Source: a virus
Direction: 5' to 3' (one strand)
Virus record (IMG/VR): IMGVR_UViG_3300042860_001776
Span: 1 to 20,946 of that record
Length of the DNA: 20,946 nt
The position numbers and the translations under genes are program-made. This document shows positions 372 through 20,530 of this stretch, piece by piece. The notes under the pieces were generated by a model. The model made no database searches and was not told the DNA's origin. It saw nothing but the letters and a program-made list of their open reading frames with translations. How positions within the stretch are numbered: position 1 is the first letter of the stretch; every line of letters begins with the position of its first letter.

Positions 372-626
372 CTATTGTGTGGGTCCGTTAACCAGAGTCA
401 CGATGACCGAAACCCAGTCCTGCCAGTTGATGAAACCCTCTGGCGCCGGTAGGCCATACGATTGAAACGTCGGCAGGGTCAGCATGTGGTTTGCGAGCAT
501 CCGCCAGTTCTCTTCATCTACGATCGGCAGGGGTTCCTGTCCGAAGTAGTGCAGCAAGTTGCCGTTCCAACTATCCCAAGTAGCGTCCTGGGGAATGAAC
601 GGTATTGACTGGCGAATATCGGCCAT
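372..626 (-). CDS. Small hypothetical phage protein downstream of the nozzle gene
   Basis: An 84-residue protein starting MADIRQSIPFIPQDATWDSW and ending DWVSVIVTLVNGPTQ. It is rich in Trp and Pro with no membrane segment, signal peptide or cysteine motif, so it looks like a small soluble protein. Its ATG overlaps the stop of the nozzle gene as TAATG, and no good Shine-Dalgarno is visible. That suggests translation by re-initiation after the nozzle and possibly matched output. Small proteins of this sort often follow the nozzle gene in podovirus-like genomes and may be minor tail components, but I cannot assign a function. The coding call rests on the tight coupling and on the lack of any competing frame with comparable context. 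Confidence 0.8.
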   Translation of the reverse strand: MADIRQSIPFIPQDATWDSWNGNLLHYFGQEPLPIVDEENWRMLANHMLTLPTFQSYGLPAPEGFINWQDWVSVIVTLVNGPTQ

Positions 627-2719
627 TACGGACGCTCGTCGCCAAACTCGGCCGTGACTAGGACACGACCCATTTCGTAATTGCCGTCCATTACGTTAGA
701 AACAAACCGAAGACGGGACTCTCGGTTTTCAATACGCAAGTCAATCTTGCCGGTGTCAGGTCCGAAAGTAAATTCAGCCGAAGCCTGCTCTTCACCTCGG
801 GCAAATTTCCGACCCAGTACCTGGAGAGTCATGTCCCCGGCTTGCACGAAATCTGGTTCGATACGACGCAAGTGAATGCGTCGGTTGATACCGCGCGGTG
901 CATCTTGCGACGGGTCGCCGCCCACCCAACTAATATCGCAAGTGTCGAACGACGAGTAGATGGAACGCACACCATCATCGTCAGCCTCGTTCAGGCTCCA
1001 CTCGTGCTGCCAAACCGTGACACCGTTACTGACCGGGTACACTGGGTCATTGAACACCAAACCGATTGGTACGTTATCTGAGAAGGTGATAAGCGTCACG
1101 TTCTGGTCGGGATAGTATGTCGCGGCAGTAGTTCGATAGAACGGCGCGCCAAACTCCGCGGTGAACTGCACATTTCGACGCGGGAATATGCCTGGAGTGG
1201 CATCCCCTTGTACATAGACTTGGTTCGGCCCGGGAGGCAACAACGGCGCAACCACGTCATCAGTCCAGAAGTAAGGAGTAATAATCGTGTCCTTGTACTC
1301 CCATCCGCACCAAACGGGCGACGGGAACACTTCGGTCGTGTAGCCACAAGAACGACGGGCACCTTCAGCTTGGCCGGCGTCGTACCACAGCTTATCCTTC
1401 ACGTTGTAGATAATCGCATCCGTGCACTCGGTTGCATTACCGCGGGGATAAAAGAACCAGACTTCGTTGTACCGGGGCACCTTTGTAGCCCACACTTTTT
1501 GGCGCTGATTAAAGTTCAGGTTGTCGTATACCCAGTTGATATTCTTGTCGTTGGGCATGACCTGGACAGAGCCGTTATATGCGTAGAATCGATCCACGCC
1601 CATCCAGTAATAGATCCCGTCCATCTCTACGACCGAGTTAGAGGACAGGATTGAAGTCTGGCTAGAAATAATGTCGTACTTCCAGTACTGCTCGGGGTTA
1701 CCAGTAAAGGAAACCCGGATCAAGCTGTCCGTAGCCCAGAACAGGCCGGACGGCGAGTTTGTGCCGCCTCGAACTGGCATGCCCTTGACGATCTTGCCTG
1801 CCGTCATGTTGTTGCGGTTAGCCAGGGGGCCATTCCAGTCAAATACGCTTCGATCTGCTTGGACTGGATCGACGTTGTTGTTGGCGATGAATCCGTTGGA
1901 CCCGTACACGAAGATGAACGGGTAGAGCACGCACACGCCGCCATCGACCACGATTGGCGCGCCTGTGGGGTTTGCACCGGCCGTATCCGCTAGGCCCTCG
2001 AAGTTCCAGGTATAGTTCGTATCAGGCAGCACGTTGCCCACCAGGACCTGGGTGGCGATGCCGTTGTCGATGTTGGCAAGGTTAAGGCCCGGGTGGGCCA
2101 AACATTTCAGCGCGTCACCTTGCGGGTCGTACTGAATGTCAAATTGCCAAGTGTTTAGTTCGCTCTGTTGGAAGTAATAATCCGCCACCCAGACCTTCGT
2201 AGGGGCTCCGGGAATAGCCGTTGTGAGCGTCACCGTTGTATTTGGTGCGGTATAGCTTGAACTAGAAACAATATACTGAGGCGCGCCAGGGGTTTGACTG
2301 AAAACCACCTTGGTGCCTGCGGTATAAATATCTGTGTGGTCGCCGGCCACAACAAAGGAAGGGGTTGCGACACTGACAAGCGTGCGCTCGTCATATCCCA
2401 CTTTGATAACCGCGGAATAGGGGCCGTTGCCCACACCGAGTGACGTGGCACTGGTGGCCGCAATCAACGCAAACTGATTGCCGGTGAAGATGTAATTGAC
2501 ACCGTTAAAACTGGTGGCGATCATGCCGCGCGCAATGCCGGTCCAATCGCGGTACATCTGCAAGTACCCACCTATTTTCTTCGGCACACCGCGCTGAAAG
2601 CGGCACCACACCCCGTCGGTAAATTCGCGGGATTCAAAGGTGGTACCGTCGCGTTTGACCCCTGGCTTTACGCCAAGGGTATAGACGAAGTTCAGGTTTT
2701 GATCTTGCTGCGCGGCCAT
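626..2719 (-). CDS. Tail nozzle / packaged-DNA stabilisation protein (P22 gp10 or T7 gp12-like)
   Basis: A 697-residue protein. Near the N-terminus are GVKRDGTTFESREFTDGVWC (about 19-38) and RFQRGVPKKIGGYLQM, a pattern I associate with the large podovirus nozzle protein. Beta-rich segments follow with recurring aromatic blade-like motifs, such as YWMGVDRFYAYNGSVQVMPN and VWFFYPRGN, which fits the propeller-containing fold of gp10/gp12 nozzles. In such phages the protein forms the distal tube of the short tail and holds packaged DNA. The length is within the usual range, and there is no signal peptide or membrane helix. The gene starts directly after the previous stop (TAA then ATG) and overlaps the next gene by one base. 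The order adaptor, adaptor, beta-rich protein, nozzle supports the call. The family assignment is from recalled pattern. Confidence 0.82.
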   Translation of the reverse strand: MAAQQDQNLNFVYTLGVKPGVKRDGTTFESREFTDGVWCRFQRGVPKKIGGYLQMYRDWTGIARGMIATSFNGVNYIFTGNQFALIAATSATSLGVGNGPYSAVIKVGYDERTLVSVATPSFVVAGDHTDIYTAGTKVVFSQTPGAPQYIVSSSSYTAPNTTVTLTTAIPGAPTKVWVADYYFQQSELNTWQFDIQYDPQGDALKCLAHPGLNLANIDNGIATQVLVGNVLPDTNYTWNFEGLADTAGANPTGAPIVVDGGVCVLYPFIFVYGSNGFIANNNVDPVQADRSVFDWNGPLANRNNMTAGKIVKGMPVRGGTNSPSGLFWATDSLIRVSFTGNPEQYWKYDIISSQTSILSSNSVVEMDGIYYWMGVDRFYAYNGSVQVMPNDKNINWVYDNLNFNQRQKVWATKVPRYNEVWFFYPRGNATECTDAIIYNVKDKLWYDAGQAEGARRSCGYTTEVFPSPVWCGWEYKDTIITPYFWTDDVVAPLLPPGPNQVYVQGDATPGIFPRRNVQFTAEFGAPFYRTTAATYYPDQNVTLITFSDNVPIGLVFNDPVYPVSNGVTVWQHEWSLNEADDDGVRSIYSSFDTCDISWVGGDPSQDAPRGINRRIHLRRIEPDFVQAGDMTLQVLGRKFARGEEQASAEFTFGPDTGKIDLRIENRESRLRFVSNVMDGNYEMGRVLVTAEFGDERP

Positions 2720-3808
2720 TTAGAAGTTACCACCGTCAACTTGCAGAAGGTTGTTGTTACCGTATAGGATTTGAGTCTTCAGTCCATAGGTCAACAAAAT
2801 CGCCACAGTGCCGGTGTTAATAATGACCGGCGCATCAGGACTACCAACCACATTGAAGGTCACCGAATAACCTACTTGGTTGGTCTGGTTGGTGATCACA
2901 TAAATCTGCGTGATCGCCGGCAGCGTCACGTCAAGGGACTGCGTGCGGCTGCCCGTGTTCGCCACATAGGTCTGGATCGTGACCGCAGCATTCACAAGGT
3001 TCAGCGTGTTTCCAGGTAGGCTATCCACGTCGTAGATAGCGGAACTGTATGGAACCAATGTGGTCCGCGGCAGGCCGATCGTGTAATAGTTGCCGGTGTT
3101 TACATCGTATGTGATGATGGCCGAATCAGTCGGGAAGAATACTTGCGTCGCAAATCCGTTGATGGTCTTCAGGTACGGTGCGTACACCGTGACCTGACCT
3201 TCGCCTTCATTACGAAGCATGACGTACCAACCGGCCGTCGGGGGCTCAATCGGTAAGTAAACCTCACCCAGGCCTGCCTTCCAGACATATGCCCTGGAGC
3301 GGTCGGTCGAAACAAGCTGATAGTCGGTGTACAACTCGTTAACGAGTGTAGAGGTGTTCAGCTTGCCTTCTTGTGCTTGCAACCCGTAGCCGGCCAGAGA
3401 CAATGCGTCTGCATTAACCGTGGAGGCACCAAACGCAAACGTGTGCCAAGCATTTACGTTTGTGTCGTCATCATCCACAAGGTAGAAGTACCACGACTCG
3501 CCCGACGCAATAGTCGTCGAGGCTACGGGCTGATCGAATAGTTCAATCGTAACGGCGCCGACCGATAGGTTGTTAAACAGAATGTCAGAGCCAACGGAAC
3601 CCTGCGAGGCAGGAGGCAGGATAATCGTTCCACTTCCGTCTCCGGTAATGTCAATGATTCGGGCGGCGGGCTCAGTATCTCCGCCCGAAACCGTATTGGC
3701 AGGCCAGGAAAGTTGTGTGGTGCTGCCCGAAGCAACCGCCAGATCCAGATAGGAAACGTCGGTCGGTTGAATGACGTTCCCAGTGAATGGGGAAACAAAA
3801 GTCGCCAT
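2720..3808 (-). CDS. Beta-rich tail/neck structural protein
   Basis: A 362-residue protein starting MATFVSPFTGNVIQPTDVSY. It is made almost wholly of predicted beta strands, rich in Thr, Val, Asn and Gly, with no cysteine cluster, membrane segment or signal peptide. Segments such as ARIIDITGDGSGTIILPPAS and SGESWYFYLVDDDDTNVNAW resemble beta-sandwich or fibre-base proteins that I recall between the adaptor and nozzle genes of other short-tailed phages. A role as tail-knob or fibre-attachment protein is inferred from position. The start follows the previous gene's TAA with no gap, and a GGAG Shine-Dalgarno sits about 8 bases upstream inside the adaptor gene. The C-terminus (LLQVDGGNF) abuts the nozzle start. 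It is almost certainly a virion protein, but its exact role is unknown. Confidence 0.75.
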   Translation of the reverse strand: MATFVSPFTGNVIQPTDVSYLDLAVASGSTTQLSWPANTVSGGDTEPAARIIDITGDGSGTIILPPASQGSVGSDILFNNLSVGAVTIELFDQPVASTTIASGESWYFYLVDDDDTNVNAWHTFAFGASTVNADALSLAGYGLQAQEGKLNTSTLVNELYTDYQLVSTDRSRAYVWKAGLGEVYLPIEPPTAGWYVMLRNEGEGQVTVYAPYLKTINGFATQVFFPTDSAIITYDVNTGNYYTIGLPRTTLVPYSSAIYDVDSLPGNTLNLVNAAVTIQTYVANTGSRTQSLDVTLPAITQIYVITNQTNQVGYSVTFNVVGSPDAPVIINTGTVAILLTYGLKTQILYGNNNLLQVDGGNF

Positions 3809-4429
3809 TTAGGGCTCCAAGGTAGCTGTGTTGCGATCGATGCGGCGGGAGTTATCTTCACCCTTCAGTGCAGCCATGGAAGCACTGTACATCTGCTGCC
3901 ACAATTGCAGCTTGTCAGGGCTCTTCAAATAACCCTGAGCCTGCAAAAGCGTGCCAAACAAAATGGCCTGGGGCGCCTCGCGCGTGATCAGATTCTGTTG
4001 GTTGGTTGTGTCCAACGGCTGAATCTGGCTGTAGTAAATGATCTCGACCGTATAGGCCGCATTCGGGGTGGGACTGATCAGCCAGTGGTTATAATCGTAG
4101 TCGCTATAAAACTTCGGCTGCGCGTTGTCGGATTGACTGGAGTACTGCGCAACATAGTCTTGTGAACGCAGCAGCATCGGGGCGCCGTTGATCTTCATCG
4201 ACACCGTTTTTCTCCACCGCGCCGGCTTCAAGAGGACTGGCTCAGTGGGGATTGTGTTGGTGGTGACGACGGTCAGTTCCCAGAGCGTCTTGACCTGGGC
4301 GGCAATCTCTTGCTCGGCCATGGAAATAAGGCGCGGGATCTGTTCCACGAACGACGTGTCATCGCGCTCGGAATACCTAATAATGTCCTGTACCAGACTA
4401 TCATAGGTCATTACGTATGCGGTCGTCAT
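3809..4429 (-). CDS. Head-to-tail adaptor (phage adaptor / tail tubular A-like) protein
   Basis: A 206-residue protein. The N-terminal helical pattern, MTYDSLVQDIIRYSERDDTS followed by FVEQIPRLISMAEQEIAAQV (about 8-46), is typical of the phage adaptor family, in which a helical bundle docks under the portal ring. The middle has the usual beta segment with LKPARWRKTVSMKINGAP and DYDYNHWLISPTPNAAYTVE. The C-terminal helix contains AILFGTLLQAQGYLKSPDKL. Such proteins form a ring joining portal and nozzle. The ATG lies two bases after the TAA of the longer adaptor-like gene, with a modest GAG Shine-Dalgarno. Two adaptor-type genes in tandem followed by the nozzle match a podovirus neck. The length is normal for the family. 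The assignment is by sequence pattern and context. Confidence 0.83.
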   Translation of the reverse strand: MTTAYVMTYDSLVQDIIRYSERDDTSFVEQIPRLISMAEQEIAAQVKTLWELTVVTTNTIPTEPVLLKPARWRKTVSMKINGAPMLLRSQDYVAQYSSQSDNAQPKFYSDYDYNHWLISPTPNAAYTVEIIYYSQIQPLDTTNQQNLITREAPQAILFGTLLQAQGYLKSPDKLQLWQQMYSASMAALKGEDNSRRIDRNTATLEP

Positions 4430-4431
4430 GA

Positions 4432-5490
4432 TTATCTCGTGTAGTAGGAAATGTTCGGCGTGTAGTAGATGGGCGACTTGTCGCGCTCTTCTGCTTCAGC
4501 CTGGGCCAACCAGTTATTGGCTTGTGCTTCCAAGTACGTGATCCGCGCCATGTCAACACCGGGCAACTGCAACGCAAGCTGATGCGACAGCATTTTCTGA
4601 ATGGCCGCGATCCACCGGTTGGGCACATACAGTTCATTGGTCAGAGAACCAACGTCTTGCAGTTCCATTTCCAGGATCAACTGGAAGACCTGGAAATCAT
4701 CCTGCGGTATCGGCCACAGATACATTTCCGGCACAATCTGACGGTTGAACCAAAACTGAAGTGAACGCTGACTCTGGAATTGCTTGTTCGGCAGATTCCA
4801 GTAATCGTCCCGATTCAAGCGCGACAGCGGAATGTCCTGCTGCGTGTATGAGAACGAAAGTTGCCGCAGCGAGAACGTGTTAAGCACGTCCAGATTTCGC
4901 AATCTGAAATAGTTGTACTCAGGCGTCGGATCGATTGGGAAGTAATACCACTCACGATCGGCCAGGGTAATCTCCGGCAGCGTCTTGCGCACGGTCCAGG
5001 TTACCCCGTCCTCGCTCGTCTCAAAGACGAGGTTATAGGTGGCAGCACCATAGGAATTGAACCCGACCTGATAGATGCGCTGCCCGCCAGTGTATCCCGC
5101 GCCGAAGAAGTTTTCGCCCAGGGTGGAGGTTGCGTAGGTATTTAGGTCCTGGTCAAACAGATTGCCAGAATCTGGATTGGCCGTCGGCAGAGCCTCCGAA
5201 ACCGAAGGCGTGATGATATAGCGCCAGTTGGACTCGCGCACGTCAATCGTGCCAGGGGGCAGGGTAATGACGGTCTGATCGGTCACCGTGCCAAACAAGC
5301 GGTTCTCAAGCATCCACAGATTAACCCCTCGATTGGAGAGGTTCATCAGGATATAGAAGAGTGCCTGTTTGGCCGCGTTGATGTACTCCGGGGTCTGCTC
5401 TTCAGCAGCTTTCCCGGCTTCACGAAACGCATATTCAATCAGTTGACCGACATTTATTTTGGTCTGATTGGTGGTGCCCGAGTAGGCCAT
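4432..5490 (-). CDS. Adaptor-like neck protein with a discoidin (F5/8 type C)-like insert
   Basis: A 352-residue protein. Residues 12-85 form the helical start of an adaptor-type protein (INVGQLIEYAFREAGKAAEE, then LFYILMNLSNRGVNLWMLEN). Residues 220-352 carry its remainder, with DDYWNLPNKQFQSQRSLQFW, PEMYLWPIPQDDFQVFQLIL, LYVPNRWIAAIQKMLSHQLA and a Tyr-rich C-terminus. Between them, at about 92-213, lies a segment like an F5/8 type C (discoidin) domain: LFDQDLNTYATST, YNLVFETSEDGVTWTVRKTL and NYFRLRN. Such domains commonly bind carbohydrate. The start is the ATG at 5490 with a strong GGGAGG Shine-Dalgarno at the end of the preceding 56-residue gene. The inferred role is a portal-proximal adaptor ring whose insert may project outward. 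The adaptor fold is likely; the insert identity is moderately sure. Confidence 0.78.
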   Translation of the reverse strand: MAYSGTTNQTKINVGQLIEYAFREAGKAAEEQTPEYINAAKQALFYILMNLSNRGVNLWMLENRLFGTVTDQTVITLPPGTIDVRESNWRYIITPSVSEALPTANPDSGNLFDQDLNTYATSTLGENFFGAGYTGGQRIYQVGFNSYGAATYNLVFETSEDGVTWTVRKTLPEITLADREWYYFPIDPTPEYNYFRLRNLDVLNTFSLRQLSFSYTQQDIPLSRLNRDDYWNLPNKQFQSQRSLQFWFNRQIVPEMYLWPIPQDDFQVFQLILEMELQDVGSLTNELYVPNRWIAAIQKMLSHQLALQLPGVDMARITYLEAQANNWLAQAEAEERDKSPIYYTPNISYYTR

Positions 5491-5493
5491 GAA

Positions 5494-5664
5494 TTACCTC
5501 CCGCGGCCGGCAGTCTTCTTTTCTTTGACGCGTTCCGGCAGATTCTTGGAAACGGGGCCCGCCTTGACAAATTCCTTGCCAACCTTTTTAGGGATGCCGA
5601 TATTGCTCTTGCCTTCGGCGGCCGCGTACATAGCGCCCAGTTGGGCCTTGGACTTGATGGGCAT
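5494..5664 (-). CDS. Small basic phage protein with KSKAQ and AAAEGKS motifs (56 residues)
   Basis: Read directly from the sequence: ATG at 5664, TAA at 5494-5496, 56 residues. It begins MPIKSKAQLGAMYAAAEGKS, continues with IGIPKKVGKEFVKAGPVSKN, and ends in a basic tail (KEKKTAGRGR). It is highly Lys/Arg-rich with no cysteine or membrane segment. Small proteins with this KSKAQ...AAAxGKS...IPKxVGKEF pattern recur in phage structural regions, but I know of no established function. Nucleic-acid contact or a minor virion role is possible from its charge. The start overlaps the previous stop as TAATG, and the end carries the Shine-Dalgarno of the adaptor-like gene. That fixes it as a real operon member despite its length. 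Confidence 0.85.
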   Translation of the reverse strand: MPIKSKAQLGAMYAAAEGKSNIGIPKKVGKEFVKAGPVSKNLPERVKEKKTAGRGR

Positions 5665-7460: not shown

Positions 7461-7727
7461 TCATAGTTTGTCTTGTTTGTGATCGAGCTTTTCAAGGATG
7501 CGGTCGAGCTTAGAGAAAATCGTCTCCGCGAGCTTGTCGTAGTCGGTCTTGCGCACGTAGTCGCCGATGACTAGCACCTCGATCTTCTGCACCTTGTCGG
7601 CAAGTTCAGAATCGCTTTTCTTGAGGTCACGATGTGAGTCGTACATCCATTTCAAGAAAAAACCAATAGTGATGTTCAACAGCGCGAACGCCGCATTGAT
7701 GAGTGATTGACTGTCCATGGTAGGCAT
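7461..7727 (-). CDS. Second small membrane/coiled-coil protein, possible holin or lysis accessory
   Basis: An 88-residue protein with an N-terminal apolar segment (LINAAFALLNITIGFFLKWM, about 9-28). A long amphipathic region follows: DLKKSDSELADKVQKIEVLV, then GDYVRKTDYDKL and FSKLDRILEKLDHKQDKL. The architecture matches that of the next gene (one membrane anchor, then coiled coil), though the sequences are not obviously alike. The start at 7727 overlaps the stop of the 857-residue gene as TAATG. A second ATG at 7718 is possible, and neither has a good Shine-Dalgarno, so the coupled one is preferred. I recall phage proteins with the KVQxIEVLVxGxYVK pattern near lysis genes, usually annotated as hypothetical. 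A lysis role is inferred from position and topology. Confidence 0.75.
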   Translation of the reverse strand: MPTMDSQSLINAAFALLNITIGFFLKWMYDSHRDLKKSDSELADKVQKIEVLVIGDYVRKTDYDKLAETIFSKLDRILEKLDHKQDKL

Positions 7728-10300
7728 TATGGTGTGTTGACATACGCTGATAGATCATCCGGCGTGTACGTGCCGTTATTCACTATCACCGCACGGCGAT
7801 AGTGTGCAACGCGCGCCGGCTGCGACATATCCCATGGATTGCCGACTTGCCAGTGGTAAACGCCGTGCTTTGCGTACGGAGTCTGATAGGTGGGGTTGTC
7901 CACATAACCAATCGGACCTGTGTAATCAACCACCAACTGACCATTGATCCAAGTCTTAATATACGGATTGTCAAGCGGATCAATAGATACAACCGCTTCA
8001 GTTACCACTGTGAGGTAAGTATTGTTCTTCCACCATCCAGAAGGGGAAGTCATTAGAATGAGATCGGTTGTGGTTCCCACCGAGGGGGTCAGACTGTTGT
8101 TGTACCGCAAAACTAAACGTAATGCACCTGACGTGACATCCATCGAATAAATCGGCTGCAAACTAGCCGTGCCGCCGGCATTCCACTGCATAAGCAATTG
8201 AGCATCGGTCGTGGTTCGCCAGTCTCCCGTAAACACCGCAAACGCATGGTAGAACTTCTGCGCCTGGGGGATGCCATACAAAGCAGAATCGAACGCAGTC
8301 TCGGAGCGGATAGCGCCGGCCGTCGGCGGGTCGTCGTAGACCACCATGCTTGTATACACGTAGGTTCCAGGGCGGACCGGATCAATCTCCCGGCCGAAAC
8401 GCAAGGAACCATACGGGGTGACCGAGCCAGAGATACCCGGCGGAGTAGTCGATGAGAACGACTGAATAATGCCGTAAGCCTGGATATTACCGATGGCCTG
8501 TGAAGCAAACGATGCGGCCGGGTCGAATTCAACCAGAATGTCAGCCGGGTTAATCGGTGTAATGACCGTTGGCACCAATTCCTGGACAAAACCGTACGGG
8601 GTGATGTTGACCGGAGTTGTGATCAATGAATCGCGCGGAAGTTGGTTTACCGCGATCAGGGAAGTATCTGTGTAAGTCGTGTTGGTCGGGATCGTCTGGA
8701 AGCTCGTCCAGTCGGGCATCGTTACACCAGTGTTGATCTGAACGTAGTTAAACGTATTCCGACCATACTGAGTGGCGCCCGCGGTCACCCATTCATTATC
8801 GGCAGCCGTACCATCGGAAGGCAATTTAGCAAGCAACGCTTCGCTGTATGAGGCTACTCCCCCCAATGGTTGCCGAACGTCCGCTATTCCAATATAGCCT
8901 GTCAAGTAGAAGTGCTGTTCATCTTCAGACAGTTTAATGACCCGGTGCCAGGGCCAAAACTGTTGGGGGATACTATTTACGCCGGCGAAAAGCGGCGCGT
9001 TGCTCTGATTTGTGTATTCACCAAAAGTTGTTGTTATGACACTGGGAGAAAACTGAATGGGCAGCAGCACATTGCAATAATCGACAGTCGCATTTTTGTT
9101 GAACTTATAAATGGTAGGGCTTGCTACACCATAATAAGCGGTGTTTCCGGGCAACTCTTGCGCGACAAACCAGAAATTTCCACTGTTGTCGTAAGCAATG
9201 CCCTGCGGAGTTTTGGCCATCTCCCCGGAGCGGGTACCGGTTTGGAGAATTTGTTTAGTCCATGCAATTGCGCCGGTAGACCTATTGTATTTGATTGCCA
9301 CCATTGCCGAAAAGTTTGGCGTGATAGCGTTATTATTGGAGTCGGTCTTGACAATCGTGATGACGCAATCGTCACTGGGCGCAACGCAGCCGGCATAATA
9401 GGTCGGGTATGCCGACCCAAGCAACGAGGGTGGCGGACCAATCGCAGTACTTTGCCACAAGGGCAAACACGACTGATTAAATTTGATGGTACGTACACCC
9501 TTACGTTTGACCACACCACTTTGTACTACGCCCATTTCTTGGACCGCGTATAGGGTGTCATCATCACCAACGCGCAAGTCCATGAAATACGAGAAGTAAG
9601 TAATGCTACTGCCAGAAGTCGGGTCCCCTGCCTGGGGATTTTCGCGCCAGACCGTACTGGAAACAATTGCGCCGGTAGCAGGATTGACCTTGGCTACAAA
9701 ACCATCGTAGTAAGTGATCGGTATCACGCCCGATACAAACTTGCACAATCCCGCAGCGTAGATGTTGCCAAAAGAATCCTGAACCAAGCCGCGGATATAT
9801 GTTGGCGGGGAATTACTGGCCGGCACGCCGGGGGTAACGCCGCCTTGCGGAGCAAGAACTGTCTGCCAAATCACATTGCCAGTACTGGCATTGACGGCCA
9901 CAAGCGCCGACTTGAAGCTACCGCCCTGTTGTTGCCTTGTAAAGTTTACGACGCTAAATATCAAGTGTCCGGTGAGCACGCACTGGAATGGGAATTGAAT
10001 GTAGACGCTGCTGCCGCCACCGGTGGTGTAGGCATATCGCTTCATCCAAACAATGGTGCCATCCGATTGAATGCGTGCGATTGCGGAAGACACCGTGCTG
10101 CCGTTGTTCCAAAGCCCAGACGCAAAAACGTCATTGGATCCATCCGTAGTCTCACCAATAAAAAGCCAATTAAATTGGCCGCTAGAGGTGAATGATGCGT
10201 CTGTTTGATTGGCGAAGTACGAGCCTGGAAACGAAGGCGCCGGCGGCGGAATGTCATCATCCGCTGCGCACATCAACAAACGAAAGGTGGTCGGATCCAT
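7727..10300 (-). CDS. Host-recognition protein: propeller-type repeats plus polysaccharide-lyase-like C-terminal domain
   Basis: An 857-residue protein starting MDPTTFRLLMCAADDDIPPP. Residues of about 40-480 contain repeated units of PQQ/quinoprotein propeller type, each ending in a pattern like IARIQSDGTIVWMKRY, LVAVNASTGNVIWQTVL, AKVNPATGAIVSSTVW or AIKYNRSTGAIAWTKQIL. The C-terminal part (about 635-850) resembles a jelly-roll lectin/lyase fold of the heparin lyase I-like polysaccharide lyase family. It shows LRFGREIDPVRPGTYVY, then IRSETAF, then KTWINGQLVVDYTGPIGYVD, and finally YAKHGVYHW. I infer a distal tail fibre or spike that binds, and possibly cleaves, a surface polysaccharide. The catalytic residues cannot be fixed by eye. 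It lies between a fibre-type gene and the lysis cassette. A LamG-type binding module is the alternative reading. Confidence 0.72.
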   Translation of the reverse strand: MDPTTFRLLMCAADDDIPPPAPSFPGSYFANQTDASFTSSGQFNWLFIGETTDGSNDVFASGLWNNGSTVSSAIARIQSDGTIVWMKRYAYTTGGGSSVYIQFPFQCVLTGHLIFSVVNFTRQQQGGSFKSALVAVNASTGNVIWQTVLAPQGGVTPGVPASNSPPTYIRGLVQDSFGNIYAAGLCKFVSGVIPITYYDGFVAKVNPATGAIVSSTVWRENPQAGDPTSGSSITYFSYFMDLRVGDDDTLYAVQEMGVVQSGVVKRKGVRTIKFNQSCLPLWQSTAIGPPPSLLGSAYPTYYAGCVAPSDDCVITIVKTDSNNNAITPNFSAMVAIKYNRSTGAIAWTKQILQTGTRSGEMAKTPQGIAYDNSGNFWFVAQELPGNTAYYGVASPTIYKFNKNATVDYCNVLLPIQFSPSVITTTFGEYTNQSNAPLFAGVNSIPQQFWPWHRVIKLSEDEQHFYLTGYIGIADVRQPLGGVASYSEALLAKLPSDGTAADNEWVTAGATQYGRNTFNYVQINTGVTMPDWTSFQTIPTNTTYTDTSLIAVNQLPRDSLITTPVNITPYGFVQELVPTVITPINPADILVEFDPAASFASQAIGNIQAYGIIQSFSSTTPPGISGSVTPYGSLRFGREIDPVRPGTYVYTSMVVYDDPPTAGAIRSETAFDSALYGIPQAQKFYHAFAVFTGDWRTTTDAQLLMQWNAGGTASLQPIYSMDVTSGALRLVLRYNNSLTPSVGTTTDLILMTSPSGWWKNNTYLTVVTEAVVSIDPLDNPYIKTWINGQLVVDYTGPIGYVDNPTYQTPYAKHGVYHWQVGNPWDMSQPARVAHYRRAVIVNNGTYTPDDLSAYVNTP

Positions 10301-10799: not shown

Positions 10800-11870
10800 T
10801 TAAGCTGCCTTGGGCAGCTTCTCTCCCGTATACCAAGCAAGATTGTCGATTAGCCGCGGATTGCCGGGATCAAGCTCCAAGGCCTTCTTGCCGTGCTCAA
10901 TCGCCTCATCGGGGCGGCCGGTGTAGTAGGCCGCCAGAGCGGCCAGATCGTGCGGTTCCGGGCCCCAGGCCGCGGGATCGCGTGTGTGCACATGCACGTC
11001 AGTACTGATGCCCAGGCAGCGCATGGCGGCCGTGTAGCATCCTTGCCAGTCCTTCTGCGCGTAGTAGATCCTGGCAAGCGTCATCCAAGGGTCGCGGCAG
11101 TTCAGAACCGTAGTGCACGCACGTCGAGCCCACATGGCCGCCATAGTGGGTCTTTCCAGGGCTTGGTGGGCCGTTGCCATCATGCGCATGATGCACGCGC
11201 GCTCATGGTCCCAAGTGGCCTCCGGATTGCTCAGATAGGCCTGGGCCGCGAGAATGCCTTCTTCCCATTTCTGGGTGTACATTAATTCGCGGGCGAAGTA
11301 GAAAGCCATGCGCTGACAGTACTTGTTTTCCTGGGTTGCCGCCCGCAACAGTTCCAGATAGTTGCTGCGACTCTTGGTCGGATCCGGATAGTGCGTCACC
11401 AGGACTTTGCCGGTGGTTGCCAACTTCTCCACAGTCCGCGGATCGGGGTACACATATTCATGGCAAGCATGCTTCCAGAAGTACCCGTGGCGCGCGTGGA
11501 TCTTGTCGTAGTAAAACGCATTCTCCTTACTCCACTGATACATATAACCGACGCGAGTCACCCCTTCGGTCCACAACTTTTCCACCTCCTGGCGCCACCC
11601 AGGCTCCAGGACTTCATCCAGGTCTAGGCTCACGCACACGTCAATGTCGGCCGGCACGAGCGCCAGGGCAGCGTCCCGGGCCTTGTCAAAGCGCCAGGGC
11701 TTCACGGAGATGGTGTGCACCTCCGCGCCGTGCTCCCGGGCCTTCTGCACTGTGTTGTCGGTGGACCCTGTGTCCGCAATCAGAACGAGGTCCGCCTCCT
11801 TGGCGGATTCGCAAAACCTTTCTACAAAGGCCTCTTCGTTCTTGGCAATCGCGTAGACCGCAATTTTCAT
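10800..11870 (-). CDS. Family 2 glycosyltransferase with TPR-like C-terminal region
   Basis: A 356-residue protein. Residues 1-105 are a GT2-type (GT-A fold) nucleotide-sugar-binding domain: MKIAVYAIAKNEEAFVERFC with the family's Lys-Asn-Glu (10-12), LIADTGSTDNT (30-40), FDKARDAAL (61-69), and the metal-binding Asp-Leu-Asp at 83-85 within CVSLDLDEVLEPGW. From about 170 the protein is helical and repeat-like, ending in a recognisable TPR unit (YYTGRPDEAIEHGKKALELD, about 313-332). It would transfer a sugar from a nucleotide donor; the acceptor is unknown. It begins one base after the stop of the giant fibre gene and precedes another fibre gene, so a virion fibre acceptor is plausible. Modification of host surface glycans is the alternative. 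It is visibly more G+C-rich than the upstream gene. Confidence 0.88.
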   Translation of the reverse strand: MKIAVYAIAKNEEAFVERFCESAKEADLVLIADTGSTDNTVQKAREHGAEVHTISVKPWRFDKARDAALALVPADIDVCVSLDLDEVLEPGWRQEVEKLWTEGVTRVGYMYQWSKENAFYYDKIHARHGYFWKHACHEYVYPDPRTVEKLATTGKVLVTHYPDPTKSRSNYLELLRAATQENKYCQRMAFYFARELMYTQKWEEGILAAQAYLSNPEATWDHERACIMRMMATAHQALERPTMAAMWARRACTTVLNCRDPWMTLARIYYAQKDWQGCYTAAMRCLGISTDVHVHTRDPAAWGPEPHDLAALAAYYTGRPDEAIEHGKKALELDPGNPRLIDNLAWYTGEKLPKAA

Positions 11871-11871
11871 G

Positions 11872-14800
11872 TCATGCCCAGTTCATGAAAGAGAGAAACT
11901 GATTGCCGGCGACCGGCGCGTTTTGGAAAATCCAATTGGTGTTATTGCCGCCATCCGTAGAGTTAGCGCCGGCATACCAAACCGATCCGTTTGCTGTGCT
12001 TCCAGTGGAATAACTGATGTTCATGTAATTACATGAAATTGTCGTACTGGCGTTGTTGGCGATAAAAGTATGAGCAGAGAGTGATGTGGATCCCACCGTC
12101 ACCAAATTTCCGGGAGTGCCCAAAAACTCTAAAGTTTGAACGCGGTAATTCCGAGCGGATTGGAAAGTGAATGTCGCCGGTGACACCAAATTTTTGAAAC
12201 TATAAACATAGCATGAACCGCTTACCGTCAAGGCGCCCGCTCCGGCATTACACATTCGCGGCCATGTCATATTGGAAAAATCGCCTGGAGTCGCAGTTTT
12301 AGCACTGGCGCTTGTAAAGTTGATCTGCCCGGTTGCGGCGCCAGAAATTGTAAAGGAGGCTCCGGCGGCGCTAGGTGAAAATGCAGTTCCGGACCCGTTT
12401 ATGGTCCAGACACTGCTTCCAAAAGTAATGCTTGAACTTGTGTCTACAGTTGATATATTAAACGCTTGATCAATTGTTAAATTAAAACTATTGGTATTGA
12501 AACTTCCCGCGGACATGCTTAGTCCGTTAGATATGTACATTGCGTCACCCAAAACAACAGTGCCCGTTTGAGTGCCGTTGTTGCTGTCCCCAATTCGTAT
12601 TGGAAATGGTAGGGATTTTCCGTTTGAGGTGATTGTGCTAGTAAGTCCCGTGAATGCTATAAAATAGGTTGTGTTAGTTGTGGTGGTAAGGGTCATGCCA
12701 CTTGAAAACGTGACATTCCCCGTAAAAGTACGACCGCTAGAACTACCGGCACTAAGCGTGCCGCTAAAACCGGTAAAGTCAACATCGCCATAACCATAGC
12801 TATTAGCACTAAAAGTAACGGTATCCGTGCCTGCGTTAATATAAAAATGCAATCGGAGGCTTGGAACTGGCGCGGCACCTAATGAGAAGGTGCGCGTGCC
12901 AGTAGAGCCAGAGTAGGTAAACTCCATGCGGCTAGTTCCGGTCACCGTAAAGTTAGTTGCGATGCCCACATTAAATACGGTCGCCGCGTTGCCCGTAATA
13001 GCGAATTTCGACCCTGTTCCAAAGGTAAGATTTCGCACACCGGAGCCGGTTGAAGAAAATATAGGGGCTGTGACTGTCTGGTTAGAACCTAGATTAAAAT
13101 TGCCAACTAAGAGTGAGAAGTAGTTACCGGCAGTGCTGTTGTCAATTGTAAAATCGCCAACAAGCGTGAACGTCGTAGTTGATGTGGCGTTAACTTCCCA
13201 TCGGTTTTTTAACGTGCGGTTATTTGTGGTGACAGTAAAGGACTCACCCGCATAACCAAATAAAGTATGAGTTGAGCCACTTGTGGCAAACGACATGCCC
13301 GTAGAGAAAGTTGGCTGAGATACGTACCAAGTGGTACTACCAAGCGTCCCGGAAAATCCGGTGAAATCAACAATCCGAGTATAAGCAGTACCAAAAAGGA
13401 TTGTATCCGTTCCTGCGGTAATGTAGATGTTGGGGTTGTTTGCCGCAACCGCACCAGTAAAAGAGCCCGTAATTGTGCGATTTCCAGTTGCGCCGGAGTA
13501 TGTAAAATTAAACCGGTTGGTGCCCGTATAGGTCAGGTTGGTGCTATTAGAAGTTGTGAATACGGTTGTGCCATTCCCAAACAAGCTAATCTGACTTCCG
13601 GCAGTCGAAAAGTTGATATTGCGTACGTTGCTGTTAGTACTGGAGAATCGTGCGTGTGTGAACACAAACCCGTTAAGGTCGATTGTGCCGTTGGTCAGGG
13701 TGAGAGTGCGCGCGGTTACGTTGGTTGTGGTGAACGTAAGATTGGACGTGAGACGGAATGTGCCCCCTACTCCGTCCATTGTAAAATTATAAGGTAGCGC
13801 CGGACCCGCATTTGTGAGAGTCCGGGCTGTTGCATTTGTGGACCCACAAGTCAGGGTGGCCGTTGAATCCACATATGAGGCGATATTGGCGCCAAGGGTC
13901 ACATCCCCGTAAAAAATGAATGTGGAGGAGTATGTGAAAGCCCCGCAAGTCAACCCGCTGAGGTCCCAGTTACGGACGTTCGTACTGCCTTGTCCGAAAG
14001 TGTTTGCGCCCATGTTGGCCGAAACCACAAAATTGTGTGCGTTAGTCTCAGTAAGTCCAGTGTTGTTATTGACAAGGGAAACTACCGCAAACGCGCCTGT
14101 GCCGGAATATGTGAGCACTCCGGATCCGGTCCATGTGTAGTTCGTGGCGTTTGAGAAGTTAAAAATGCCACTGATATAGCCGGAATTGGGTGTGATTGTG
14201 AACGAGCCGCCGGTGCCGTAGGTCAGATTTTTTGTTTCGGCTGACGTTAAAAGATACTGACCGGGAAAGGTCAGGGCGAATCCATTTAGGTCAATCGTAC
14301 CCGCTACCAAAGTCCATTCTTGCGCGGTTGTTGAAGTCCAATTGTTTTGCAATTGAAATTTGGCCCCGGCAGCACGTGCGTTGATATATGGGCGGACTCC
14401 CGCATTGTATGAAGTTGGACAAGTCCAAGTCGTGGTGCCCGCGCCCTGAAAATTAATCGTGGAAACGCCGGACATAGTAATGTTGGCATTTACATTTATG
14501 CCGCCATTCGTTCCGCCCATATAAAAGAATTGGCTATTCAGGGCAATCGTCAAAGACAGGGTTCTTGCGCTGCAATCCAGCGTGGAACATGCCATTTGCG
14601 CATTGGTCGTGAGTGTTAGGGTTGTGCCGGCCGCACCTGTGTTGTTATCAATGATAACGGTGTCTTGCCCCAGGGGGTAGTTGTTTACAGACGCGCCGCC
14701 GCCAGATGTAGTCGCCCACCGTGTGGTAGCAGTCCAGTTTCCGGTGCCGCCCACTGCATAAACAGTCTTGGGGGTTGTAAAAGTTACGCCAGTACAGTTG

Positions 14801-15837
14801 CCAAAATCGCCAATACTGGTGCCTGTGACCGGCGCGCCGGCGCCCGTAAAGTTACAATTGCGGATGTTTACATCGTTAAAGTTGTATGTGGCGGCACTTA
14901 TTGTATTGTTGGGGGCGGCAATGTCGGCTGAACAAAAAAACGTCCGAGTTGCACGATCGACCGAAGCAGTAATAGAGAATGTGCCTGAGCAATTGACAGA
15001 AACTCCGGAAGCCAGTTCGACACGTATGTAAGATCCGGGACTTGAAACGGTTGGACCATTGATTGTTAGATTTCTACAATTTAGCGTAGTGTTAAAACCG
15101 GTAGGGTTGGTGGAAGTAGAGCGGGTAATAACTACATCATACCAAGTAAGACCGCTATTCCAGTTAAGGGTGGTGTTGGTGCCGGTTGAAACGATCGTCG
15201 ATGTTCCCACGTTGAACGTGAGATTAGTAATGGTGCCAAAACTGACTGAAAATAAGCTGTTGCCAAGGGTAATGGTGGAAGACCCGAGCGTGAGTGTTCG
15301 CACGTTCGAGTTGCTACTGCCAATGCCGCCGGTCACGATATTAAAATTTGCGGTGTTTAATGACCCCGCGGTAAGAGTAATAGTGCCGGAACCTTGTGTT
15401 AAGGCACTTCCCAGGGACCACCCCCCGCCCACGCCGTTAAAAACTATGTCTACGCTGCCGAAGTTCACCCCGTTGGTGGTAACGGTCTTTCCTGTGGTGG
15501 TGGCAGTAAAGTTGATCGTGGATGCGCCTGAAACAACAAAGTTTGTTGCCGGAAGCGTCATGCTCCCGAAAACAGTCAAGTTGGAACCCACTGATAGGGT
15601 CATCGTGCCGTCAAGCGCGCCACCACCTCCGCCGGTGGTGAAGTCACCGCACGCCGCGGATGTGCCGACGGTGACCGTGAATGCGCCGGTGCCGGTGTTG
15701 CTATTGGCGTCGAAGATGACGTTATCGGCAGTCGTGGGCGCGCTCGCGCCACTGGCGCCACCACTGGTGGCTGACCAGTTGGTGGTGCTAGTGTTGTTCC
15801 ACGTGCCGCTGCCGCCGACCCAATACCTATCAGCCAT
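11872..15837 (-). CDS. Giant repeat-rich tail fibre / adhesin-like protein
   Basis: A 1,321-residue protein, extremely rich in Thr, Ser, Asn and Gly and nearly all predicted beta. The start, MADRYWVGGSGTWNNTSTTN, is a module I recall at the head of long phage fibre proteins. The C-terminus has CNYMNISYSTGSTANGSVWY followed by AGANSTDGGNNTNWIF (about 1,260-1,300), another recurring end module. In between, a motif of the type GTIDLNGF...SxxSNVRNLTFG recurs, with anchors near residues 512, 717, 912 and 1,109 and a degenerate earlier copy near 165. That fits stacked beta-solenoid or sandwich repeats. No signal peptide or catalytic motif was seen. The ATG overlaps the previous stop as TAATG. It probably forms a long receptor-binding fibre. 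The function is inferred from composition and neighbours. Confidence 0.8.
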   Translation of the reverse strand: MADRYWVGGSGTWNNTSTTNWSATSGGASGASAPTTADNVIFDANSNTGTGAFTVTVGTSAACGDFTTGGGGGALDGTMTLSVGSNLTVFGSMTLPATNFVVSGASTINFTATTTGKTVTTNGVNFGSVDIVFNGVGGGWSLGSALTQGSGTITLTAGSLNTANFNIVTGGIGSSNSNVRTLTLGSSTITLGNSLFSVSFGTITNLTFNVGTSTIVSTGTNTTLNWNSGLTWYDVVITRSTSTNPTGFNTTLNCRNLTINGPTVSSPGSYIRVELASGVSVNCSGTFSITASVDRATRTFFCSADIAAPNNTISAATYNFNDVNIRNCNFTGAGAPVTGTSIGDFGNCTGVTFTTPKTVYAVGGTGNWTATTRWATTSGGGASVNNYPLGQDTVIIDNNTGAAGTTLTLTTNAQMACSTLDCSARTLSLTIALNSQFFYMGGTNGGINVNANITMSGVSTINFQGAGTTTWTCPTSYNAGVRPYINARAAGAKFQLQNNWTSTTAQEWTLVAGTIDLNGFALTFPGQYLLTSAETKNLTYGTGGSFTITPNSGYISGIFNFSNATNYTWTGSGVLTYSGTGAFAVVSLVNNNTGLTETNAHNFVVSANMGANTFGQGSTNVRNWDLSGLTCGAFTYSSTFIFYGDVTLGANIASYVDSTATLTCGSTNATARTLTNAGPALPYNFTMDGVGGTFRLTSNLTFTTTNVTARTLTLTNGTIDLNGFVFTHARFSSTNSNVRNINFSTAGSQISLFGNGTTVFTTSNSTNLTYTGTNRFNFTYSGATGNRTITGSFTGAVAANNPNIYITAGTDTILFGTAYTRIVDFTGFSGTLGSTTWYVSQPTFSTGMSFATSGSTHTLFGYAGESFTVTTNNRTLKNRWEVNATSTTTFTLVGDFTIDNSTAGNYFSLLVGNFNLGSNQTVTAPIFSSTGSGVRNLTFGTGSKFAITGNAATVFNVGIATNFTVTGTSRMEFTYSGSTGTRTFSLGAAPVPSLRLHFYINAGTDTVTFSANSYGYGDVDFTGFSGTLSAGSSSGRTFTGNVTFSSGMTLTTTTNTTYFIAFTGLTSTITSNGKSLPFPIRIGDSNNGTQTGTVVLGDAMYISNGLSMSAGSFNTNSFNLTIDQAFNISTVDTSSSITFGSSVWTINGSGTAFSPSAAGASFTISGAATGQINFTSASAKTATPGDFSNMTWPRMCNAGAGALTVSGSCYVYSFKNLVSPATFTFQSARNYRVQTLEFLGTPGNLVTVGSTSLSAHTFIANNASTTISCNYMNISYSTGSTANGSVWYAGANSTDGGNNTNWIFQNAPVAGNQFLSFMNWA
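12465..13651 (-). repeat. Two adjacent diverged copies of a ~196-residue coding repeat in the giant fibre
   Basis: Copy A (about 13064-13651, residues 729-924) begins RFSSTNSNVRNINFSTAGSQ. Copy B (about 12465-13063, residues 925 onward) begins IFSSTGSGVRNLTFGTGSKF. Both continue in the same order with a YSG(A/S)TG(N/T)RT segment, then a (Y)I(T/N)AGTDT segment, then VDFTGFSGTL, then a F(S)(T/S)GM segment. The next boundary motif closes each copy. The similarity is at protein level; the DNA copies are clearly diverged. Boundaries are approximate. Confidence 0.7.
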
Positions 15838-16019: not shown

Positions 16020-18115
<2,096 letters not shown>

Positions 18116-19612: not shown

Positions 19613-20530
19613 TTACACGCCCGCGGTACCATAGATGTTGCGGGCGTCGTGCCAGCCCGTGGCGTACCGCTCGGTGGCCTTGTAGCGCATCGAGTCAGTC
19701 TCAAAGTCCCCTTCCATAGATTTCTCCATAGGACGACGCATCACGAGCATCAGACCGTTCTCCGCATCGGTCTGCACCCACCATGCCTTACTGGACGACA
19801 GACGGGTCACCACGTGGGTGCCCTTCGGCAGCATACCAGTAGACTTGATCGGGTTCAGATCGTTGTCGGCGGTGCCGCTACGCAGAACCGACTTCAGGAT
19901 CACCTCAGCCTGGAATTCCAGGGCAGGAGGCACCACCAACTGCTCCGCACGCAGACGGATACGCTTGCCGTTGTTGTCGATCGCGCCGCGGATCTGGATC
20001 AGGATCTGCTCCACGGACGTTTGCGACAAGTTGGCGGCAGTCGTCAGTTGGTTGCTGTACGTCAGACCGTTAGCCACGGGGTGAGCCGTGTTAACGAGCG
20101 TCACGCCGTCGCCACCCACGTAACCGGGGGTGAACGCGAAGTTCAGCAAGTTGGCGCACAGGGTTTCCTTGGTCTCAATCATGGACTGAGCAAGGTGCTT
20201 GGCGAAGGTGCTGCCGATACGGATGTGATCACCGTCTTCCATCAGAACCTTGGTCAGGGCATAAGCCAGACCATAGATTTGATAGATGAATCGGGTGATG
20301 TACAACGTACCGCCCTGGTCATAAGAGACCGGGGTGCCGTCAGGCATGGCCGGAGCGGCATTCATACCAAACAGCATCACTTCTTCGTGATAGTTACGGG
20401 GGATGCCTTGGATCTGCTCGACGAATCCTTTCCATTCATCGTCGCGCTGCTCGTAGACACCATCAAAGACTTCGTTGATAATCGGTTCGACTACCGCACG
20501 AAAGTCAGTACTGCGCATCGGGGCTGCCAT
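19613..20530 (-). CDS. Major capsid protein (Mu gpT-like, HK97-type fold expected)
   Basis: A 305-residue protein starting MAAPMRSTDFRAVVEPIINE. The block EVFDGVYEQRDDEWKGFVEQ (about 20-39), the middle LLNFAFTPGYVGGDGVTLVN followed by TAHP (about 128-151), and the end RYATGWHDARNIYG resemble Mu gpT-type major head subunits, where the mid-protein DG..L....HP motif is characteristic. The length is typical for the family. It should form the icosahedral shell; no cleaved N-terminal delta domain is apparent. A near-consensus Shine-Dalgarno (AAAGGAGT) sits five bases before the ATG, and a strong terminator follows, both consistent with very high expression. Family membership is from recalled pattern; the capsid role is well supported by the context. 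Confidence 0.88.
   Translation of the reverse strand: MAAPMRSTDFRAVVEPIINEVFDGVYEQRDDEWKGFVEQIQGIPRNYHEEVMLFGMNAAPAMPDGTPVSYDQGGTLYITRFIYQIYGLAYALTKVLMEDGDHIRIGSTFAKHLAQSMIETKETLCANLLNFAFTPGYVGGDGVTLVNTAHPVANGLTYSNQLTTAANLSQTSVEQILIQIRGAIDNNGKRIRLRAEQLVVPPALEFQAEVILKSVLRSGTADNDLNPIKSTGMLPKGTHVVTRLSSSKAWWVQTDAENGLMLVMRRPMEKSMEGDFETDSMRYKATERYATGWHDARNIYGTAGV

Follow-up and report, generated by a model that had tools for sequence, protein, structure and literature searches.

Genomic context of the adaptor gene

The window, by which we mean the whole stretch of DNA that was analysed, is an IMG/VR virus record of 20,946 bases and looks like the neck and tail module of a short-tailed phage; the major capsid protein is encoded at 19613-20530. 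The gene under study (4432..5490) encodes a protein of 352 amino acids, with its ATG at 5490 and the stop codon included in the coordinates. These boundaries had been given correctly by the first-pass annotation, to which we add the strand, which is minus. Just 5′ of the ATG lies a Shine-Dalgarno-like sequence, GGGAGGT (5496..5502, minus strand). The protein can be divided into an N-terminal adaptor part (residues 1-90; 5221..5490), delimited by its AlphaFold2 model, the family alignment and the model of an insert-less relative; an inserted discoidin or CBM32-like domain (residues 91-219; 4834..5220), based on the alignment, profiles and the structure model; and a C-terminal adaptor part (residues 220-352; 4432..4833), based on a PHROG match and the model, all of them on the minus strand. 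A repeat search around the adaptor region revealed nothing notable.

The neighbouring genes on the same strand also point to neck and tail functions. A second adaptor of the SU10 type (3809..4429, minus strand; 206 amino acids) was identified by matches to PF24175 (E 1.7e-23) and to the SU10 adaptor 7z47_A (E 9.9e-6), with a profile E of 3e-12. Next to it, a 362-amino-acid protein (2720..3808, minus strand) is a candidate fibre or dock partner, since tblastn aligned it with the N-terminal region of the annotated tail fibre of phage GB2A (35.8% over 338 amino acids). The gene at 626..2719 (minus strand) encodes a probable tail nozzle of 697 amino acids, which matches nozzle gp16 (PDB 8zkk, E 4.8e-5) and phrog_3287.

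Further large genes, again on the minus strand, were noted in the window. An 857-amino-acid protein (7727-10300) shows weak beta-propeller matches and a C-terminal match to polysaccharide lyase PF14099 (E 1e-11), which makes it a candidate spike or depolymerase as judged from its sequence. Midway in the structural module, 10800-11870 encodes a fusion of a family-2 glycosyltransferase with TPR repeats, and the adjacent gene (11872-15837) encodes a Ser/Thr/Asn/Gly-rich protein of 1321 amino acids that has no Pfam match. A collagen-like protein (16020-17771) contains two long Gly-X-Y tracts flanking a globular middle and matches tail-fibre PHROGs.

The adaptor body

An adaptor-like protein split by an insert and resuming at about residue 220 had been proposed from the sequence. 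This holds: residues 217-328 align to positions 97-208 of the 238 in the phrog_12985 profile, so that the match starts past the insert, insert-less relatives align around the domain, and the window protein does not align end to end with ordinary adaptors. All 67 members of the family alignment match phrog_12985, and 34 of the 67 match SU10_adaptor (PF24175; best E 8.3e-14). In deposited records the adaptor is labelled "tail adaptor" or "hypothetical protein".

The full-length AlphaFold2 model of the window protein (mean pLDDT 84.3, pTM 0.70) places helices at residues 14-24 and 34-53 and the first fibre-dock strands at 61-68 and 81-90 in the N-terminal part, and fibre-dock strands at 245-249, 255-259 and 267-275 and helices at 291-308 and 314-333 in the C-terminal part. 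The low-confidence C-terminal tail would be the embracing loop. The adaptor part of this model was compared by Foldseek only, which matched it to the adaptor 9k09_d (E 2.9e-6). We also modelled an insert-less relative (L348; mean pLDDT 73.9, pTM 0.56), for which a series of solved adaptors was recovered. The closest was that of A4 (9k09_d; Z 14.7, 5.4 Å over 203 residues; Foldseek E 5.3e-9), followed by those of GP4 (Z 13.9), VP1 (13.3) and KHP30 (13.2; 2.8 Å over 176 residues) and, at lower scores, N4 (Z 11.5), SU10 (11.1) and T7 (10.7). The beta region of this relative alone (residues 59-153) matched baseplate parts of P1 and phiKZ, TssK and the tailspike TSP4 (Z 6.6-7.5) and, with a lower score, the N-terminal part of T7 gp17 (Z 5.9), all below the trust level of the tool, and we take this as a hint of a weak likeness between the modelled dock region and baseplate or tailspike parts. 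From these models, the window protein is predicted to be a podoviral head-to-tail adaptor consisting of an up-down helix bundle and a beta fibre dock.

A discoidin fold within the adaptor

The inserted domain was not apparent from the window protein alone: a single-sequence Pfam search gave no match at E<=1, either with the whole protein or with the insert as query, and a single-sequence PDB search with the protein gave nothing usable, so that family profiles were required. Among the 67 aligned family members, F5_F8_type_C (PF00754) is matched by 28 at E<=1 (best E 6.3e-6), although the individually inspected matches fall under Pfam's curated cut-off, and F5_F8_type_C_2 is matched by 17. When the 67-member profile was compared with PDB sequences, proteins bearing CBM32 or F5/8C domains took the top eight places among the 12 matches listed (best E 0.0031, 5zu6).

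Structure prediction led to the same result. The insert is modelled with a pLDDT of 90-96 in each ten-residue block from 91 to 220, and F5/8C and CBM32 domains lead the Foldseek matches of the model in the PDB, with E values from 5.9e-7. With model residues 92-216, the top match in VIA was the CBM32 of AlyQ (Z 15.6, rmsd 2.5 Å over 123 residues), and the insert was covered by all 50 matches listed. We therefore uphold the claim of a discoidin-like domain at residues 92-213, together with its placement around three sequence motifs, which are located at residues 112-123 (FDQDLNTYATST), 159-165 (SEDGVTW) and 194-199 (YFRLRN); a fold search lacking a discoidin jelly roll, the outcome that would have spoken against it, did not occur. 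Taken together, the insert is predicted to be a discoidin beta-sandwich of the eight-stranded type. We did not file it as a CBM32, because carbohydrate binding is a putative function here and the D113/T118 columns are kept in two subclades, with D113 absent from a third.

Position of the insert in the fibre dock

The models of the window protein and of the insert-less relative share the same order of elements: two helices and two strands come first and three strands and two helices last, with either the insert or a short loop in between. The strands before the insertion site span residues 61-68 and 81-90 in the former and 60-66 and 80-90 in the latter. In T7, gp11 is described as a helix bundle with a five-stranded fibre dock (PMC6702177); the fibre-dock loops of SU10 protrude radially and grip the coiled-coil part of the fibres (PMC9509320), and in P-SCSP1u the fibres attach to the fibre dock of the adaptor (PMC10575957). 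Because of this common order and of these dock descriptions, the insertion is predicted to fall within the fibre-dock beta domain. By analogy, we infer that the insert may occupy the very loop that serves as fibre dock in SU10. The first-pass annotation had considered adaptor rings to be normally compact, which has to be qualified, as the adaptors of T7, SU10 and P-SCSP1u possess a beta fibre-dock domain and a sister lineage of the window protein carries another insert in the same place.

Distribution and evolution of the insert

Relatives of the window adaptor are encoded at 70 further loci, and 601 of 616 loci contain a family member in an open reading frame of at least 200 amino acids. A search of genome contigs yielded 38 pattern matches and no confirmed relative, hence no prophage or host link. 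Seven phage proteins aligned with the window protein represent three kinds: those with a homologous insert (ctpbd312, 352 amino acids; GB2A, 328), those of 220-231 amino acids without an insert (CRP-901, 226; DSL-LC04, 221; ct7L0027, 230; HTVC023P, 231) and one with a different insert (HTVC027P, 312). Of the seven regions from related phages, five (L072, L074, L075, L076 and L077) carry annotated GroES-type co-chaperonin genes, which lie upstream of that for the capsid.

For a tree of the adaptor core, the insert was removed and 60 representatives were used, namely 59 with less than 80% identity that were long enough for their group, and the window protein. The 48 discoidin-bearing cores form a single clade (support 0.999) composed of the subclades win (23 cores, support 1.0), ct (11, 0.998) and gb (14, 0.993). 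The two representatives of the HTVC027P type and the three of the insert-less HTVC023P type cluster together (support 0.998). This tree supersedes an earlier, narrower one of 67 discoidin-bearing and seven other cores, in which the support was 0.915. The anchors flanking the site are separated by 128-137 residues in win, 128-133 in ct and 102-105 in gb, by 91 in the HTVC027P type and by 9-13 in the remaining ten representatives. Since the discoidin clade and the HTVC027P type are separate in the core tree, the same adaptor site has been filled at least twice.

The insert of HTVC027P (L075:8250-8510) is unrelated to discoidin. It matches 174 phage records, mostly of cyanophages, and among the 25 matches listed are the "tail tube B" of Skadi phages, the baseplate wedge gp7 of P-HM2 and structural proteins of cyanophages. 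Tail-fibre PHROGs are matched as well, and the module also occurs in nozzle proteins.

The discoidin domain appears to be an old acquisition, because it is fixed in one clade comprising 48 of the 60 cores, and neither loss nor exchange was found among these 48 representatives. A recent acquisition was rejected in view of GC and GC3 values of the insert that equal those of its flanks and of its presence throughout the clade.

Selection on the insert and conserved residues

We estimated dN/dS from pairs of at least 85% identity with dS between 0.05 and 1.5. Expressed as sum dN/sum dS, the insert reaches 0.073 in win, 0.116 in ct and 0.193 in gb, compared with 0.048, 0.049 and 0.060 for the N-terminal part and 0.033, 0.052 and 0.060 for the C-terminal part. 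The insert is thus under purifying selection that is looser than that on the adaptor body.

Conservation within the domain is uneven. All 64 members with a discoidin domain share W165 and R196 without exception, and S159 and D161 are almost invariant. Both D113 and T118 are kept by all 17 ct-type sequences, and of the 30 win-type sequences 24 keep D113 and 18 keep T118; the two residues form what we take to be a Ca2+-site motif. In the gb subclade, equivalents of residues 99-114 and 126-132, and with them the D113 region, are lacking in all 17 sequences, and one gb insert (L225) aligned to PF00754 from profile position 35 onward only.

A second adaptor gene next door

Of 123 win-type loci, among which some contigs count twice, 122 have the SU10-type neighbour, and in those listed it starts a few bases downstream of the first adaptor gene. 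It is also encoded, at greater distance, in ctpbd312, GB2A, HTVC027P, HTVC023P and DSL-LC04, and related phages of about 50-60 kb encode both adaptors. We considered the neighbour as a paralogue of the discoidin adaptor, but their similarity in hhalign was not significant. In phicrAss001, rings of adaptor fold are stacked, and R1 and R2 bear fibre hubs (PMC10172136). A neck with two adaptor rings is therefore plausible by analogy, as the two genes adjoin, both occur in related phages and the phicrAss001 rings are stacked.

Possible roles of the discoidin domain

By homology, the discoidin adaptor would form a dodecameric neck ring alongside a second ring of the SU10 type, the product of the adjoining gene. 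The CBM32-like domain lies in a loop of the beta fibre dock, which in T7, SU10 and P-SCSP1u is the outward-facing part by which the tail fibres are held, and because of this location we infer that up to twelve copies of it would project from the ring. Most likely, the job of the domain would be mechanical, with an enlarged dock gripping or orienting tail fibres or spikes and stiffening the collar. By analogy with known docks, we lean modestly towards this docking role. We prefer it to glycan binding because the domain is placed in the fibre dock, because it was neither lost nor exchanged in the clade, because W165 and R196 stay invariant even in the reduced gb form, and because the insert of the HTVC027P sister lineage is structural in nature. 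Two observations speak against docking, namely that the solved structures nearest to the insert are glycan binders and that the insert has diverged faster than the adaptor body.

The same two observations, the CBM32-type fold and the greater variability of the insert, would favour an outward-facing collar of lectins, which would bind glycans of the cell surface or capsule reversibly and so give the neck an additional point of adsorption; the first-pass annotation had suggested an outward carbohydrate-binding domain of this kind, and the D113/T118 motif kept in ct and win fits such a collar too. Yet the region of this motif is missing from all 17 gb sequences, and host-range modules are prone to exchange or loss, unlike the domain described here, which is fixed in the 48 representative cores; with the simpler role offered by the fibre-dock position, a lectin collar seems to us possible but rather doubtful. 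Unlikely in our judgement is a broader scheme, again drawn from analogy, in which the fibre-dock loop would be a general decoration slot, here holding as many as twelve discoidin lectins through which the neck would make a first, reversible contact with glycans of the host surface, and loaded independently with another module in the HTVC027P lineage. Instead, the domain could be a stabiliser of the neck that packs on the neighbouring ring or against a vertex of the capsid and has neither fibres nor glycans as ligands. This would agree with the second adaptor encoded next door, with the structural module of the HTVC027P lineage and with the adaptor of P-SCSP1u, which touches the capsid as well (PMC10575957), but descriptions of known adaptors assign fibre binding to the beta dock, and we consider such packing quite improbable. 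That the insert is an artefact, arising from a chimaeric assembly or a chance resemblance to discoidin, might be suspected from the missing Pfam match of the window protein alone. This reading is refuted by relatives at 70 further loci and by the same architecture in GB2A, RW, RLK, KcrB and ctpbd312; with an insert that equals its flanks in GC and GC3, evolves under purifying selection and reaches Z 15.6, its probability is negligible.

The adaptor ring is a conserved part of short-tailed phages that is usually seen as plumbing. With two unrelated domains at one site, of which the lectin fold has become fixed in a widespread clade, the neck would seem to be subject to adaptation as well, be it for fibre docking or for host contact. 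The question is testable, because Caulobacter phages with a discoidin adaptor (GB2A, RW, RLK and KcrB) have been isolated on a laboratory strain and share the architecture.

Comparison with known systems

In the open-licence literature, as judged from search listings, we found no report of a phage adaptor that carries a discoidin or carbohydrate-binding domain; in Vibrio phage Peru-2, a predicted CBM resides in the tailspike and not in the adaptor (PMC13320782). The CBM32 and F5/8 type C domains of AlyQ (7d2a), AlyB (5zu6) and CpGH89 (4a42) share the beta-sandwich fold with the insert (Z 14.6-15.6), whereas the latter is a predicted fold of 11-18% identity to them and lies inside a structural ring protein of a phage. 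The tail barrel of phicrAss001, with its rings R1-R5, likewise has several adaptor-fold rings per neck, but its fibre hubs are separate proteins, and the available part of that report makes no mention of discoidin (PMC10172136).

The gp11 adaptors of SU10 and T7 show the same order of helix bundle and beta fibre dock as the window protein, which differs by about 129 extra residues of discoidin fold in the dock and by the separate SU10-type adaptor that its phage encodes alongside. Direct homologues are the PHROG 12985 adaptors of Roseobacter phage CRP-901 (gp54), Pelagibacter phage HTVC023P (gp54) and DSL-LC04, in which the same helices and strands surround the site but 9-13 residues separate the anchors. 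In Pelagibacter phage HTVC027P, gp64 belongs to the same adaptor family and has an insert at the same site, with 91 residues between the anchors, but here the module is another one, common to nozzle, baseplate-wedge and tail-fibre proteins of phages. The insertion of about 129 residues thus makes the window protein a variant within the adaptor fold family and not a protein outside it. The same adaptor with a discoidin insert is found at full length and 34-41% identity in the Caulobacter phages GB2A, RW, RLK and KcrB and in the metagenomic ctpbd312, with the difference that inserts of the GB2A type, at 102-105 residues, are shorter because a portion of their N-terminal region is absent. The discoidin-bearing adaptor is a real, little-noticed variant of a standard neck part.
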